Source of the DNA: Acetobacter malorum | Lineage (GTDB): Bacteria; Pseudomonadota; Alphaproteobacteria; Acetobacterales; Acetobacteraceae | Assembly: GCF_002153605.1 (NCBI RefSeq) | Contig: NZ_JOPG01000014.1 | Coordinates: forward strand, 1-64,000 | Reading direction: 5' to 3' | DNA length: 64,000 nt | Shown: in pieces, positions 39,444 through 52,722 of the stretch | Numbering within the stretch: the stretch's first letter is position 1 | How the letters are laid out: the number at the start of each line of letters is the position of its first letter | Notes under the pieces: generated by a model | What the model was told of the DNA's origin: nothing | Database searches by the model: none | Seen by the model: only the letters and a program-made list of their open reading frames with translations | Made by a program: the position numbers and the translations under genes

Positions 39444-40058
39444 TTGAACCGACATGTTCTTTCAGGCCGGGTGCTGGCAGGCCTTGCCGTGCTGGCGTTG
39501 AGCGCCGTGCCCGGCCATGCCGCAACACAAGGAAAGGCCAGCACGCACAAAAGCAGCGCGCATAAAGGGCATGCCAGCAAGGGGACGGCGCAGCAGAGCG
39601 GGGACCCGGTGATTATGACCAGCCAGCCCGGCTCCGCGCTGGATAAACAGGCCCGCATCCTGAATGCGGAGGATCTGGCTTCTGCCGCGCGGCATCATGA
39701 AAAACCGCTGGTGCTGATCGGCTCAGCCCCCCTGTCTACTACGGGAAAGAGCATTGGCCTGTTTGTGCAGGTACAGTCCGCCAGCCTGTGCGGCTCTGCG
39801 GGGTGCTCCACGGACGTTTACCTCCAGCAGAAGGGCAACTGGACCAAGGTGCTGGATTCTGTCAGCGGCCCTATCAGCCTGCTGCCGACAACGCATGGCA
39901 TCATGAAAGATATTCTGGTGGACGGGTCTGATCGCTGGATCTGGAAAAAAGGCACCTATACCGACACGCTGGTGGCGACTGACCTGCCGGGCTTTAAAAC
40001 CTCCATCCGTCGCCATCAGGCGGCTATGAAAAAAAGCGGCCATCCGGTTTCTGAATAA
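39444..40058 (+). CDS. Secreted hypothetical protein with basic N-terminal linker
   Basis: A TTG at 39444 with GGGAGG 9 bp upstream opens a signal peptide (VLAGLAVLALSAVPGHA) that the longer frame would bury. The 204-aa product then has a His/Lys/Ser-rich linker and a compact domain with a Cys pair in SLCGSAGCSTDVY, likely a disulfide. It ends KKSGHPVSE. No family is recognised. It diverges from the DUF1653 gene and is followed at 38 bp by a small membrane protein gene. Confidence 0.7.
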   Translation: MNRHVLSGRVLAGLAVLALSAVPGHAATQGKASTHKSSAHKGHASKGTAQQSGDPVIMTSQPGSALDKQARILNAEDLASAARHHEKPLVLIGSAPLSTTGKSIGLFVQVQSASLCGSAGCSTDVYLQQKGNWTKVLDSVSGPISLLPTTHGIMKDILVDGSDRWIWKKGTYTDTLVATDLPGFKTSIRRHQAAMKKSGHPVSE

Positions 40059-48078: not shown

Positions 48079-49548
48079 ATGCTTCAGATTTCATTTTCTC
48101 CCGAGACCCTGCCCGATGGTGGGGCACTGGCTCTTCTGCTGGCCGAAGGGCAGGACCGCCCGGCCATTTTTGACGCCGCAGACAAAGCCACCAACGGCGC
48201 ACTGACCCGCGCTGCCGAAGCCGATGATTTTACCGGCAAAGACGGCTCCACCTGCGTGGTGCTGGCACCGGGCGCTGGCTTTTCCCGCATTGTGCTGATT
48301 GGCGTTGGCAAGCTGGACGCTTTTGGCGCGAAAGAAGCTGAAGCCGCTGGTGGCATTGCGGCCTCTGTTTTTGGGGTGCAGGAAAAAGCGACCGTTGCAC
48401 TGGGTAATGTGCCGCAGGGCTTTGCCGCCTCTGTAGCGCAGGGTGCGGTGCTGGGTGCGTATCACTTCTCACTGTATCACAGTGCTCCGGCGGTTGAGAA
48501 AAAGCACCGTCTGGCAAGCGTGACGGTGCTGACGGCTGATCCCGCCGCAGCAGATGCCGCGTTCGCTCCGCTGGCCGCTGTGGCCCGCGGCGTGATCCTG
48601 ACGCGGGATCTGGTGACGGAACCGGCCAACGTGCTGAACCCGGAAGAATTCACCGCCCGCGTGACGACACTGCGCAGCCTTGGACTTGAGGTCGAGGTGC
48701 TTGAGCAGGCCGATATGGAAAAGCTCGGCTTTGGTGCCCTGCTGGGTGTGGCACAGGGCAGTGCAAACGCACCGCGCACTGTGGTGATGCGCTGGAACGG
48801 CGGCGCGAAGGATGAAGCTCCGCTGGCCTTTATTGGCAAGGGCGTGACCTTTGACTCTGGTGGCATTTCCATCAAGCCGGCTGCTGGCATGGAAGAAATG
48901 AAAGAAGACATGGCCGGTGCCGCTACCGTGACCGGTCTGATGACAGCGCTCGCTGGCCGTAAGGCGAAAGTGAACGCTGTTGGCGTGATCGGGCTGGTGG
49001 AAAACATGGTGTCCGGCACGGCCCAGCGCCCCGGTGACGTGGTGCGCAGTGCTTCCGGGCAGACCATTGAAGTGCTGAACACGGACGCCGAGGGGCGCCT
49101 CGTTCTGGCAGATATCCTCTGGTATGCGCGGGACCGTTTTGCGCCGAAGCTGATGGTGGACCTTGCTACGCTGACGGGTGCCATCATCATCAGCCTTGGC
49201 CATGAATATGCAGGCCTGTTCTCCAACAATGACGATCTTTCTGCCAACCTGACGGCAGCGGGCGTGGCAACGGGTGACAAGCTGTGGCGTATGCCGATGG
49301 GCGCTGAGTATGACGCCATGCTGAAATCCGACATTGCCGACATGAAAAACATCGGTGGCCGTCCGGGTGGTTCCATCACTGCCGCTCAGTTCCTCAAGCG
49401 CTTTGTGGGTGAAACCCCGTGGGCGCATCTGGACATTGCCGGAACAGCCTGGAGCAAAACCCCGCGCAACGGCCAGCCCAAAGGTGCCACCGGCTTTGGC
49501 GTGCGCCTGCTAAATGAGTTTGTGCAGAAGAACTACGAAACCGTTTGA
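48079..49548 (+). CDS. pepA: Leucyl aminopeptidase
   Basis: The 489-aa M17 enzyme removes N-terminal residues from peptides with two divalent metals. The catalytic half shows GKGVTFDSGGISIKPAAGM with the metal Lys/Asp, the M17 signature NTDAEGRLVLAD, and DLATLTGAIIISLGHEYAGL. Length agrees with E. coli PepA (503). AAGGAGG stands upstream of the ATG. A strong terminator follows, marking the left border of an AT-rich insert. Confidence 0.95.
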   Translation: MLQISFSPETLPDGGALALLLAEGQDRPAIFDAADKATNGALTRAAEADDFTGKDGSTCVVLAPGAGFSRIVLIGVGKLDAFGAKEAEAAGGIAASVFGVQEKATVALGNVPQGFAASVAQGAVLGAYHFSLYHSAPAVEKKHRLASVTVLTADPAAADAAFAPLAAVARGVILTRDLVTEPANVLNPEEFTARVTTLRSLGLEVEVLEQADMEKLGFGALLGVAQGSANAPRTVVMRWNGGAKDEAPLAFIGKGVTFDSGGISIKPAAGMEEMKEDMAGAATVTGLMTALAGRKAKVNAVGVIGLVENMVSGTAQRPGDVVRSASGQTIEVLNTDAEGRLVLADILWYARDRFAPKLMVDLATLTGAIIISLGHEYAGLFSNNDDLSANLTAAGVATGDKLWRMPMGAEYDAMLKSDIADMKNIGGRPGGSITAAQFLKRFVGETPWAHLDIAGTAWSKTPRNGQPKGATGFGVRLLNEFVQKNYETV

Positions 49549-49573
49549 GGTTTTCGGGGTTTGGTTTGACGCG

Positions 49574-49601
49574 AAAAGGGCCTCTTTTGAGGCCCTTTTT
49601 T
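49574..49601 (+). terminator. Rho-independent terminator after pepA
   Basis: AAAAGGGCCTC / GAGGCCCTTTT, an 11-bp perfect stem with a 4-nt loop and trailing T residues. Confidence 0.92.
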
Positions 49602-49717
49602 GTAACTGATAGTCATGGAGTTTATTTTTTAAAATTATAAATATTAACAAACATTATAATGCACCTTTAAAAATTCACAAAATTATTCTATTTAGAAAAT
49701 ACTAGAAATTTCATTTT

Positions 49718-50359
49718 TTATTTCTTTGACCATTCATTAAAACGCACAGCATTAGAGACGGCCAAAGCGCTAGCGGGCTCTGTTCCTTTCAGTAGACTAG
49801 AACATGGCAGCACAATTTTTTCAAAAAATGCTTGTCGATTGCTGATTGTTGAGAGTGGGATACTGAAAAACCAATCTGTTTCGTCCAAAGGGACCTTGGG
49901 ACGCTCAGTCGTATTATTTTTTTCTCCCCATACAACTAGTTCCGGAACGTCAGGATATAAATAACAATTGTCCCTAGTGTAATCATCCGCGGGATATCCA
50001 TTTTCATCCGCCAGTACCATCTGTAAACTCCAGAGATCTTTGTATGCTGGCGTGTAAGCGCATGTTATCAAAGCAGAGTTGGAGTGCTCCCAAGATGAAT
50101 GACTAACAGGACGGTACATTTCAAAAGCGATCAACAGCCCTCTATGTTTTTTGCTCTTTGGAAGAAATAATTTATAGGAATAGCATGAGCTGCTCGCAAT
50201 AACATCTTGGAAAGAGGCTTCATCATAATCATTTTCTTGTAAATCAAGAGATAAGCCAGTTTTATGGAACATCTCTGGCGCTTCTTCAGATAAGCGCTCT
50301 ACTTCCCTCCATGTTGTATCAGAATTTAAAAACGACTTGAAAATATTGCATTCATTCAT
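49718..50359 (-). CDS. Unknown 213-aa partner of a PD-(D/E)XK protein
   Basis: The protein has no signal peptide or membrane helix and is rich in Ser, Glu, Trp and Tyr. It starts MNECNIFKSFLNSDTTWREV, has a central stretch of predicted strands (YSYKLFLPKSKKHRGLLIAF) and ends NAVRFNEWSKK. I recognise no domain. Its ATG overlaps the stop of the upstream nuclease-like gene (ATGA), so it is made with it. The DNA is clearly AT-richer than pepA and the DUF2252 gene, a sign of acquisition. It could be an immunity, sensor or specificity partner; this is open. Confidence 0.72.
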   Translation of the reverse strand: MNECNIFKSFLNSDTTWREVERLSEEAPEMFHKTGLSLDLQENDYDEASFQDVIASSSCYSYKLFLPKSKKHRGLLIAFEMYRPVSHSSWEHSNSALITCAYTPAYKDLWSLQMVLADENGYPADDYTRDNCYLYPDVPELVVWGEKNNTTERPKVPLDETDWFFSIPLSTISNRQAFFEKIVLPCSSLLKGTEPASALAVSNAVRFNEWSKK

Positions 50360-51033
50360 TTTGGTTGCTCCGTGAATTGGAATTTAATTTTTTCTACTGA
50401 AAGGGTATGAAAGCCAGAAAATGATATCTGTTTAGCTTTTTCTAAGAATGTGCTCACTTGTTTCCCCCACTCTCGGACTGGTGTAGCAAAAGTTTCTGAC
50501 TTCAGTTGGTGGGCTATGCGATGCACATCAGTCCATCGTATATTTATAACGCCTGCACGTTTGATTGGACCTGCGGTCTGGGTCAGGGCCACAATCAGTC
50601 TCCGAGACCGAGGATATGCCTTTTTTATGGCTTCCTGTTCGCGAACGATTTCATACAATAATTCATTTGTAGCCATAATCCATGTCCACTTCATTTCCCA
50701 TGTGATGATAAGTGAACGGATGTCATCAAACTGAAACTGCATCACAAGATCGGGTTCACAGCGGGAAGTGGAATCTCCATTTCGCGCTTGAGCTTTCAGT
50801 CCATTTGGCCACAACTGGATTTCATGCGCGTTAGGATGCCGTGTTGCGTAATCAGAGAGTAGATCTGGTCCAAGTAGGGTTTTGACGACTAACCAAGCGT
50901 CTACTGCTCGCATAAAGGCAAGCGGAGAAAAGACCATGGATGTAATGGCATCTTCGTTCTTATTGTTCGTATGTTCCTCGTGCCGGTTACATAGAACGCG
51001 GCGAACACCTTTTTGGTTGAATGCGTGCAACAT
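50356..51033 (-). CDS. PD-(D/E)XK nuclease-superfamily protein (motif-based)
   Basis: In this 225-aa protein Pro94-Asp95 (in CEPDLVMQFQFDD) is followed 17 residues later by Glu113-x-Lys115 (LIITWEMKWTW), the PD-...-ExK core of restriction-type nucleases. Upstream Glu71 (AHEIQLWP) and the N-terminal NNKNEDAITSMVFSPLAF, with ED at 27-28, resemble the entry region of several PD-(D/E)XK families. A helix with Glu/Gln and the strand RRLIVALTQ follow, as in the fold. The first ATG lacks a clear Shine-Dalgarno sequence. It heads a two-gene AT-rich cassette; a DNA-targeting defence function is inferred. Confidence 0.7.
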   Translation of the reverse strand: MLHAFNQKGVRRVLCNRHEEHTNNKNEDAITSMVFSPLAFMRAVDAWLVVKTLLGPDLLSDYATRHPNAHEIQLWPNGLKAQARNGDSTSRCEPDLVMQFQFDDIRSLIITWEMKWTWIMATNELLYEIVREQEAIKKAYPRSRRLIVALTQTAGPIKRAGVINIRWTDVHRIAHQLKSETFATPVREWGKQVSTFLEKAKQISFSGFHTLSVEKIKFQFTEQPK

Positions 51034-51279
51034 AGTAAAATAGTATCTGCCTTTGTGGCGCCCGAGACAATTCTTTATATGTAAAGTAAGAACATTTCAG
51101 TTATGCATCACGAATAGTAAAATTTAGGAATGCTCTTAATAATTTGAGCAGGATCTGGATAATCAGCAATTTCAGCCCAAATCGTCAGCGAGCAAAGGCG
51201 GTCATTTTTTCAATAATAAAATTTGTGGACAGAGTTGCAACCTAGAGTATGCTAGCGCTACCAAGACGTTTCAGAAAGA

Positions 51280-52722
51280 TCAAGAGTATATATTGGAATC
51301 TTCTGGCGCTTTCTTCTCTGTGCCGGGTAATTGCGCAGAAATCCTCCCCTTCTTAATCGCCGCACAAAACGCTTTCCAGTCGGCTTTAGTCTGGTCGGCG
51401 TAGGCGGTGGAGAAGGTGGCGATGGCATCGGCAAAGGCGCGGCCTGCGCCGAGATAGCCGGAGAGGGTGGCAACGTCGCCAGAGCGGGCGTGGGCGCGGG
51501 CCAGTGTGCGGCCACACAGCAGGGCGTAGTCTGGCAGGCCAATCTGGGCAAATTCCGCGCCAATGGCGGCCAGTCTCTGGTCTTTCAGGCGGCGGACGTA
51601 AAACTGGCGCTGGCCGATGGGCTGGGTGCCGGTCTCACCGTCCACTTCATCCGTGCCGCCGCTATGTGTCCAGCCCAGAAAAGCGTCAGATGCGGTCTGC
51701 ATAATCCGCTGGCCCGTCACCACCCGTTCCCCCTGATTGCGGAACGGGGAGGGGGCAAGATGCGGGGCCAGAACAGAGGTCTGCGCTTCCTTGATCTGGA
51801 GCAGCAGCACCTCATTATCCGGTGTGGCAAACAGACCAATGGCGCAGAAGGTGCCCACGCTACCCACGCCCACAACTTTAAAAATCACATCCTGCAACGT
51901 GTAGCGGGAGAGCAGAATGGCGCGTTCCGGCGGCTGTGTGGCGAGGTAACGGGCAAAGGCGGCGCGGATGGTGTCATCCTGTTCCGGCAGACGCACCACC
52001 AGCGGTGGTTTTTCCGTCAGGCGCGGGGTGCCGCCCTCATCCGCTACAAGGCCAAAGTGGCTGCGGGCACTTTCCAGCCGCGCATCCAGCAGGCTTTGCA
52101 CCTTTTTGCGCGCCTGCTTGTCCTGAAAACCGGCAATGGCGGCGGACAGGTCAATCCGTTCAGCCCAGATCGCCAGCGGGTTCAGCGGGGCCAGTTTTGC
52201 CATTTCCTGTGCATACGTCTGGGCCATGGTGCGGGCCAGCGCGCGGGAGGCACTTTCGGACAGGCCACCTTCACGCCCGGCCAGCACCAGAGAGGTGCCT
52301 AAACGCTTCACGTCCCATTCAAACGGGGCGGAGAGCGTTTCATCAAAATCATTGATGTCAAAAACAGGGATGCCTTCTGGGGAGGCATAACTGCCAAAAT
52401 TAGCCAGATGGCAATCGCCACAGCTCTGCACTTTGGGGCCAGCAGAGAGCGTTCCGGCCAGATCTGACGCCATGACAGCCGCAGCCCCGCGCAGGAAGGC
52501 AAAGGGAGAGGCCGCCATGCGCGCATACCGCACCGGCATCAGCGCTGTAATGCGATGCGTGCCCTGTTCCACAAGGATGGAAACCGGGTCCTTCCGGTTT
52601 TTAGGGGGCTGCCAGTCTGCCTGTTTGGTGCGGGGCGCGCTCTTGCGGAGCTTCACGCCTTCAGCACGGCGGATGGCGCGGGGGCGGAGGCTGGCGGTCT
52701 GGGCCGGGCGGGCTGATGTCAT
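51280..52722 (-). CDS. DUF2252 family protein
   Basis: The 480-aa protein shows RYARMAASPFAFLRGAAAVM, the kinase-like core CGDCHLANFGSYASPEG...FDINDFDET and FEWDVKRLGTSLVLAG, all marks of DUF2252, distantly related to aminoglycoside-phosphotransferase-like folds. It ends in a Lys-rich tail. The phosphoacceptor, if any, is unknown. GC content returns to the genomic level here, so it marks the right border of the AT-rich insert. Confidence 0.88.
   Translation of the reverse strand: MTSARPAQTASLRPRAIRRAEGVKLRKSAPRTKQADWQPPKNRKDPVSILVEQGTHRITALMPVRYARMAASPFAFLRGAAAVMASDLAGTLSAGPKVQSCGDCHLANFGSYASPEGIPVFDINDFDETLSAPFEWDVKRLGTSLVLAGREGGLSESASRALARTMAQTYAQEMAKLAPLNPLAIWAERIDLSAAIAGFQDKQARKKVQSLLDARLESARSHFGLVADEGGTPRLTEKPPLVVRLPEQDDTIRAAFARYLATQPPERAILLSRYTLQDVIFKVVGVGSVGTFCAIGLFATPDNEVLLLQIKEAQTSVLAPHLAPSPFRNQGERVVTGQRIMQTASDAFLGWTHSGGTDEVDGETGTQPIGQRQFYVRRLKDQRLAAIGAEFAQIGLPDYALLCGRTLARAHARSGDVATLSGYLGAGRAFADAIATFSTAYADQTKADWKAFCAAIKKGRISAQLPGTEKKAPEDSNIYS

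Follow-up and report, generated by a model that had tools for sequence, protein, structure and literature searches.

A two-gene insert with a predicted PD-(D/E)XK nuclease, related to the candidate anti-phage pair PDC-M15, in a variable slot of Acetobacter malorum

The closest described counterpart of the locus analysed here is PDC-M15, a candidate defence family of the 2023 PADLOC-DB in which PDC-M15A comes first and PDC-M15B is adjacent to it on the same strand, the pair lying inside or beside a known immune system; our literature search found no paper on this family. The PD-(D/E)XK nuclease superfamily is recognized by an alpha-beta-beta-beta-alpha-beta core and by a P-D...E-x-K motif accompanied by an acidic residue upstream. 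In the window (the whole 64,000-nucleotide stretch of A. malorum contig NZ_JOPG01000014.1 that was analysed), the initial annotation had singled out two genes as a possibly undescribed pair of this kind. ‘Undescribed’ is not supported in that form: the first gene matches PDC-M15A. The pair nevertheless has features of its own.

The two genes lie on the minus strand. Gene A (50356..51033) encodes 225 aa and, from its ORF, PADLOC, AlphaFold and fold matches in the PDB, is a predicted PD-(D/E)XK nuclease resembling PDC-M15A; gene B (49718..50359), defined by its ORF and a profile match, encodes an acidic partner of 213 aa (pI 4.9) without known family. As first annotated, the ORFs overlap by an ATGA (four bases, 50356..50359, minus strand) that holds the stop of A and the start of B. 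The AT-richer block described around them is also evident, the GC content being 38–47% in 500-base windows over 49500–51249 compared with about 60–63% on both sides. The block is flanked on the left by a putative pepA (48079..49548, plus strand) and on the right by a putative DUF2252 gene (51280..52722, minus strand), both placed by their ORFs and by the aligned edges discussed below. A promoter and terminator scan yielded nothing usable (nine promoter-like sites compared with 3.7 expected, and no terminator-like sites).

In an alignment of 40 rows of A homologues, the residues Pro94, Asp95, Glu113 and Lys115 noticed from the single sequence are invariant (40/40), which rules out a chance motif. 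The PD half corresponds to the codons of E93-P94-D95 (50749..50757, minus strand), with E93 kept in 39 of 40 rows, and the ExK half to those of E113-M114-K115 (50689..50697, minus strand). A possible first acidic active-site position is found in E27-D28-x-x-T31 (50941..50955, minus strand): residue 27 is Glu in 39 rows and Asp in one, and D28 and T31 are each present in all 40. Residue 128, which is Glu in the window and Gln in 38 of the 40 rows, counts against the explanation favoured below. The AlphaFold model of A (pLDDT 80.3, pTM 0.78) places helices at 23–40 and 43–54, strands at 69–74, 96–101 and 108–114, a helix at 122–139 and a strand at 144–151; both the core order and the motif with its upstream acidic residue are those of the superfamily. 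The top PDB fold matches of this model are mostly nucleases, the best with a Z score of 8.8 over 112 residues at 2.9 Å; as this Z is middling by the tool’s own note, the fold assignment leans on motif and fold together. The nucleases matched include AF1548, EndoMS, the small subunit of R.BspD6I, Can2, Card1, SduA, McrBC and LmuA, all of which we take to belong to the PD-(D/E)XK class, and an XisH structure is also among the matches. Comparison of A with the sequences of solved structures gave no convincing match, and profile searches of PDB sequences reached E = 0.29 at best. The structure prediction thus supports the proposal that gene A encodes a nuclease of predicted PD-(D/E)XK fold.

Gene B is not an accidental neighbour of A. 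A leave-one-out profile test found a B homologue directly downstream of A at 44 of 45 loci, the sole exception being L055, where the downstream ORF was matched by neither B profile; the pair is therefore conserved across genomes, and a conserved two-gene unit is supported. The 45 loci are not independent, since L005/L024 and L006/L058 are apparently the same loci and L052/L053, L016/L017, L022/L027 and L023/L040 are apparent near-copies; L040, where the ORF scan missed A but tblastn shows both A and B, lies outside the 45. A tree of A proteins (42 rows, with L026, L034 and L052 left out) divides exactly by B type, and the window-like A proteins form a separate clade with support of 99/93.

Gene B itself matched nothing in Pfam, PADLOC or NCBIfam, in line with the earlier remark that it has no recognizable domain, but a profile built from the eight remaining window-type B proteins detects it (E = 3.6e-10). 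It varies far more than its partner, with two invariant columns compared with 12 in A over eight window-type loci. B is acidic in all 12 proteins measured (pI 4.2–5.6) and A is also acidic at seven of 12 loci, so that acidity is not peculiar to B (L016 and others were left out of the pI and invariant-column measurements). For B, the predicted structure is of low confidence (pLDDT 61, pTM 0.61) and gave no PDB match with Foldseek at E 0.001; Mediator subunits head the VIA-align rows, with Z of at most 7.9 for a model of pLDDT 61, and we claim no fold from them.

How, then, does the pair stand to PDC-M15? Gene A matches four PDC-M15A models with E values of 1.7e-9 to 2.9e-5 (PADLOC-DB 2.0.0, a library without curated cut-off), which assigns it to PDC-M15A, and the layout of the two genes is that of PDC-M15. 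PDC-M15B models recognize the partners of two PDC-M15A relatives but, even with E values up to 10 admitted, not the window B, and B as a plain PDC-M15B was rejected. A profile of 34 other-type B proteins (L034 and L055 left out) reached at best E = 1.1 (Z = 1000) among the nine window-type B proteins and 3.4 for that of the window, and a forced global profile alignment of both B types gave P = 5.5e-4 but a probability of 12.5%; a remote kinship of the two types may exist. With an A that matches PDC-M15A, a B that does not match PDC-M15B, a clade of its own and a B type of its own, the window pair is, judged by sequence, a divergent relative of the candidate anti-phage pair listed in PADLOC-DB, and so would be a variant of a known candidate rather than an undescribed system.

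The pair occupies a variable AT-rich slot (49602..51257), delimited by composition and by DNA alignment to same-genus genomes; the left edge falls at 49601–49603 and the right edge, which varies with the genome compared, at 51258, 51304 or 51332, close to the limits of 49620–51280 first drawn for the cassette. Five same-genus genomes have other cargo in the slot. G009, where the slot was read from the ends of two contigs, carries a PD-Lambda-5_A homologue there and G034 a dGTPase homologue; the genes of G024 and G040 look regulatory or metabolic, and G010 has an Rce1-like protein. The PADLOC run on this cargo covered three ORFs of G009, three of G024, four of G040 (where further ones are present) and one each of G034 and G010. 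dGTPases may also have housekeeping roles. One G024 protein, apparently a methyltransferase, matches mad2 over 116 of its residues and was left out of the defence count. The insert is present or absent at otherwise alike sites, since G007 carries 1387 bp of 39% GC with A and B where G045 has 72 bp, and no third gene of at least 100 aa was found in the G007 insert. These alignments support the view that the AT-rich cassette is a clean, movable two-gene insert.

Counting the genome of the window in each case, A was found in two of 49 same-genus genomes, two of 100 relatives, five of 299 genomes in the family, three of 385 in the class (one of them, G880, by a short weak match) and, with one PDC-M15A model, four of 398 in the phylum; in the class of G267 it was found in one of 78, G267 itself. 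The B profile searches gave four and three of 299 genomes (own genome included). In G263, which belongs to the second of these searches, a B-like gene was found without an A match. A pair of PDC-M15 type is present in one phage contig; searches with the window A returned no match, either in 50,697 phage records (E 0.01) or in a first scan of IMG/VR. A search of plasmid records with the window B also returned no match but was too insensitive, since the profile recognizes window-type B at two plasmid loci, L003 and L004.

The expected proximity to defence genes holds for the other clade and not for that of the window. Type I restriction genes of PF02384 lie within 10 kb of PDC-M15-type pairs in nine of 24 genomes compared with about 0.22 expected from density, in a scan whose four-row query included two loci beside restriction genes (L005, which equals L024, and L023, a near-copy of L040), and at four Vibrio and Shewanella loci the pair sits between hsdS and hsdR. 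In the flanks examined, an HsdM-like gene was found at none of the nine window-type loci and was lacking at 27 of the 37 others; tblastn gave no HsdM-like match at 40001–62000 of the window, and no defence gene was found adjoining the pair there. The link to restriction therefore rests on the other clade. Neighbouring ORFs at 37 loci (277 in all, without L052, L017, the window, L018, L003, L004, L023 and L022) were also scanned with PADLOC. Among the 25 families listed per set, type I methyltransferase models matched at most three of 122 and at most five of 114 ORFs per model and type I specificity models at most two of 41; these are family counts, and other models may match other ORFs. Together with the phage contig and with the PD-Lambda-5_A and dGTPase homologues in the slot, the restriction neighbourhood of the other clade lends indirect support to a link of the pair to defence.

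We lean, with some reserve, towards a mobile two-gene anti-phage module with A as nuclease effector and B as acidic regulator or sensor. What computation contributes is the predicted fold, the conservation of the active site and of the pair, a clean insert of two genes, and the defence-related surroundings of the relatives and of the slot. Against it count that no defence gene was found adjoining the pair in the window, that the restriction link comes from the other clade, that some cargo of the slot is of other kinds, that the B model is poor and that A shares the acidity of B at seven of 12 loci. A would be a metal-dependent endonuclease, presumably acting on DNA, and B, which is made together with A, acidic and rapidly changing, most likely binds it. 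B would keep A inactive, or direct it, until a phage cue, upon which A would cut phage or cell DNA and so may protect against phage. With 225 aa, A has no space for a large fused sensor domain, so that control would need an outside source, for which B is the candidate. With no HsdM-like methyltransferase found at 40001–62000 of the window, the pair resembles a triggered nuclease system more closely than restriction–modification, where a cognate DNA methyltransferase accompanies the nuclease.

The tight coupling and joint divergence of the genes, the acidic B, an insert of two genes alone and carriage by plasmid and phage would also suit a toxin–antitoxin pair, in which A is a toxic nuclease, B its acidic immunity protein and the cassette is kept by addiction and not for stopping phage. 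We consider this rather unlikely, because listed defence genes occupy the same slot and type I restriction genes are overrepresented around pairs of PDC-M15 type; some defence pairs also act as toxin–antitoxin systems, so the two readings overlap. It is improbable that the pair is an accessory or back-up of type I restriction that helps or protects hsd systems, for instance through detecting when they are inhibited: the four loci between hsdS and hsdR and the nearby PF02384 genes in nine of 24 genomes would be explained, but not the lack of an HsdM-like match at 9/9 window-type and 27/37 other loci and at 40001–62000 of the window. Finally, EndoMS and XisH among the fold matches and the movable nature of the insert would agree with a DNA repair, recombination or element-mobility factor of such a kind carried as cargo; this seems very improbable, given that in G007 no further gene of at least 100 aa accompanies the pair in the insert and that the pair is sporadic (two of 49 same-genus genomes, own included), unlike a core repair factor.

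What is new here is a divergent clade, with an unlisted type of partner, of a candidate defence pair, and a slot with changing cargo. There is about an even chance that the pair represents a second PDC-M15 subtype not yet listed, in which the same nuclease is joined by an acidic control partner from another family, and that relatives swap complete anti-phage modules (the present pair, PD-Lambda-5, dGTPase) at the pepA–DUF2252 slot. A nuclease kept while its partner alters almost beyond recognition offers a natural experiment on the role of the partner, in a pair that is small and easily tested, and a slot with small modules that vary between genomes, two of which are listed as defence, could be mined for more.

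Among known systems, the PD-(D/E)XK superfamily shares with gene A the predicted core fold and the motif residues, although no solved structure matches A convincingly in sequence. The PD-Lambda-5 and dGTPase defence families have homologues in the same slot (G009 and G034), with proteins unrelated to the window pair, the genomic site alone being common. PDC-M15 comes closest: the window pair differs from it in a B that matches no PDC-M15B model, in an A that falls in a separate clade (99/93) and in the 9/9 window-type loci without an HsdM-like neighbour, whereas it has the same two-gene order and motif, an A that matches PDC-M15A and a partner of similar size that is likewise acidic.

Gene A (50356-51033, minus strand) is an ORF of 225 aa encoding the predicted PD-(D/E)XK nuclease, and gene B, directly downstream on the same strand (49718-50359), is an ORF of 213 aa encoding its acidic partner. 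The two ORFs overlap by ATGA. Their placement and overlap, as described in the initial annotation, were confirmed from the sequence, as were the AT-richer block (38-47% GC over A and B, compared with about 60-63% in either flank) and the motif residues P94-D95 and E113-M114-K115 of A.

A has no match in Pfam, NCBIfam or a sequence search of solved structures, but four models of the candidate defence family PDC-M15A in PADLOC-DB match it (best E 1.7e-9). Residues D28, T31, W75, P94, D95, E113, K115 and W167 are invariant in all 40 aligned homologues, and E27, P76 and E93 are identical in 39 of them. The AlphaFold model of A, built from 36 rows (mean pLDDT 80.3, pTM 0.78), contains helices at residues 23-40, 43-54 and 122-139, two further helices, and strands at 69-74, 79-81, 90-92, 96-101, 108-114, 144-151 and 162-166, with D95 immediately before strand 96-101 and E113 at the C-terminal end of the 108-114 strand. 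Foldseek gave a single match below E 0.001, 9a5m, which superposes poorly (rmsd 12.8); the next ranks are mostly restriction, nicking, Cas4-family, XisH and Cap4 structures, together with some unrelated ones. VIA-align, whose own guidance rates Z values of this size as middling, ranked AF1548 at the top (Z 8.8, 2.9 Å, 112 residues), followed by EndoMS and the R.BspD6I small subunit (both Z 8.1) and, at Z 5-7, by nicking enzymes, Can2, SduA, Card1, McrBC and others. Most of these structures we take to be nucleases of the PD-(D/E)XK class. Because most match titles are nucleases and the motif sits where expected, the PD-(D/E)XK fold initially proposed for A can be considered established at the level of prediction. 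It should be noted that residue 128 (codon 50650-50652), which the model places in the helix following the ExK strand, is a glutamate in the window, compared with a glutamine in 38 of the 40 homologues.

Whole-genome searches and plasmid records supplied homologues, and scanning GTDB contigs supplied 35 loci. Using B profiles built without the tested locus and its near-copies, we found a same-strand B homologue past A, ending 605-929 bases beyond it, in 44 of the 45 loci with a clear A; at L055, the single exception, these profiles found no downstream B homologue. The suspicion that the two genes belong together is thus borne out. The commonest A/B offset, -4 (19 of 45 loci), is one that the start-picking rule favours. 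The B proteins fall into two types, PDC-M15B-like (35 loci) and window-type (nine loci: the window, L018, L003, L004, L021, L014, L015, L016 and L017). The A tree (42 rows) separates completely by B type (support 99/93), L055 carrying no type. Branches are long for several rows, the window among them, and according to a warning of the tree tool the grouping of the window with L018 may be false; the two-type split is independent of this grouping. As the A tree splits by B type, A and B appear to diverge jointly as a unit.

Window B has no family match in Pfam, PADLOC or NCBIfam, and is recovered by a profile of the other eight window-type B proteins (E 3.6e-10). Of the B proteins scanned with the PDC-M15B models, those of loci L005 and L006 match, and the five of the window type (window, L002 from the L018 locus, L003, L004, and L007 from the L021 locus) do not. 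A profile built from 34 PDC-M15B-like proteins likewise misses window-type B (best E 1.1 at Z=1000). Profile-profile comparison of the two types gave a probability of 21.9% over 90 columns, and a forced global alignment 12.5% (P 5.5e-4, 186 columns); remote kinship is possible. Invariant columns are few in B compared with A, both in the window type (2 versus 12, eight loci; mean identity 19.7% versus 24.5%) and in the other type (3 versus 16, 31 loci), which weakly suggests a role for B in recognition or control rather than as an enzyme. The 12 B proteins measured have pI values of 4.2-5.6, all in the acidic range. Among the eight window-type A proteins five are basic (9.5 for window A); at the other seven of these 12 loci A is acidic. 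The B model, for which 22 rows were used, is weak (pLDDT 61.0, pTM 0.61). It shows a long helix at the N-terminus, strands, and one strand and one helix at the C-terminus, and has no match in the PDB at E 0.001. A contig of only 3381 bases (G263:C16) carries a B-like gene (L090:1114-1833; 70 positions matched by the profile at E 1.3e-6) and no recognized A. The gene lies downstream of one for an AAA ATPase that IetA models match, and the B domain may there serve another system.

The insertion envisaged in the initial annotation is seen in genome G007, of the same genus, where the pair lies between two genes other than the window's flanks: relative to genome G045 (flanks 96.7 and 97.0% identical), 1387 bases of 39% GC, containing A and B and no other ORF of at least 100 aa, replace 72 bases. 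In the window, the slot between pepA and the DUF2252 gene starts at about 49602 and ends between 51257 and 51331, and it holds other cargo in five same-genus genomes (L075, L076, L077, L078, L079 and L080). In G009 (flanks 93-94% identical) it contains both termini of a PD-Lambda-5_A homologue (E 4.6e-36 and 2.7e-26), at the ends of two contigs with agreeing order and strand, which we infer to be one gene in one slot. G034 carries a dGTPase homologue (PADLOC E 3.1e-65), G010 an Rce1-like protein, and G024 and G040 regulatory and metabolic-looking genes, with no convincing defence match among those scanned. A listed defence family (PD-Lambda-5_A or dGTPase) thus occurs in two of the five other slot contents, a number too small for a test. 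According to PMC9519451, PD-Lambda-5 in E. coli altered plating or plaque size for all tested phages but one. Past the dGTPase gene of G034 (L078), the match to the DUF2252 gene extends over only about 300 bases, and that gene is possibly a remnant there.

The gene order in a V. rumoiensis record is hsdM-hsdS-Fic-[A-B]-hsdR, and tblastn places HsdM and HsdS before the pair and HsdR after it at L030, L038 and L040; an HsdM-like gene occurs in 10 of 46 loci. A PF02384 family search of 24 source genomes (122 Mb) found 55 genes. With genes assigned to loci by hand via coordinates, one lies within 10 kb of the pair in nine of 24 loci (L024, L030, L038, L039, L040, L047, L048, L050 and L053), compared with about 0.22 expected from density alone (Poisson 3e-12, which ignores defence-gene clustering, relatedness and query make-up). 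The anticipated defence neighbourhood therefore holds for PDC-M15-type pairs, some of which have restriction genes nearby, but not for the window type, with an HsdM-like gene in none of nine loci, some with short flanks. On a plasmid of Pseudomonas luteola, the gene next to a window-type pair encodes an HNH protein with matches to PDC-S36 and DUF7669 (L003:4692-5819). Another such pair, with a longer B, lies between a TraU-family gene and an IS5 transposase on a conjugative Moellerella plasmid (L004:7908-9550). On a 14-kb IMG/VR contig with portal and endolysin genes (PHROGs matches for four of eight non-pair proteins scanned), a PDC-M15-type pair (L084:9224-10781) lies on the strand opposite to the phage genes, flanked by a head-protease gene and an ORF next to the major-head gene; superinfection defence is a possible role.

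The pair is real, conserved and mobile. That it is a nuclease pair is very likely, and an anti-phage role is probable. In the best-supported mechanism, the predicted nuclease A is the effector, and the acidic B would be its dedicated partner, controlling or directing it. B might inhibit A, in toxin-immunity style, or activate and target it. As no methyltransferase partner was seen by tblastn for HsdM-like proteins in 40001-62000, the cell would have to be protected from A through B's control or through a phage-made cue. The value of the locus lies in the mechanism of this candidate pair and in a slot with changing cargo. PADLOC's PDC families in general are traced by PMC12988326, which terms them unvalidated, to a screen by guilt-by-embedding that appeared as a preprint in 2024; the open-access literature, with subscription papers and preprints outside reach, yielded no paper on PDC-M15. 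Window A matches PDC-M15A, whereas window B fails the PDC-M15B models, and because of this failure the pair is filed as a variant of the PDC-M15 candidate kind and not as a plain member.
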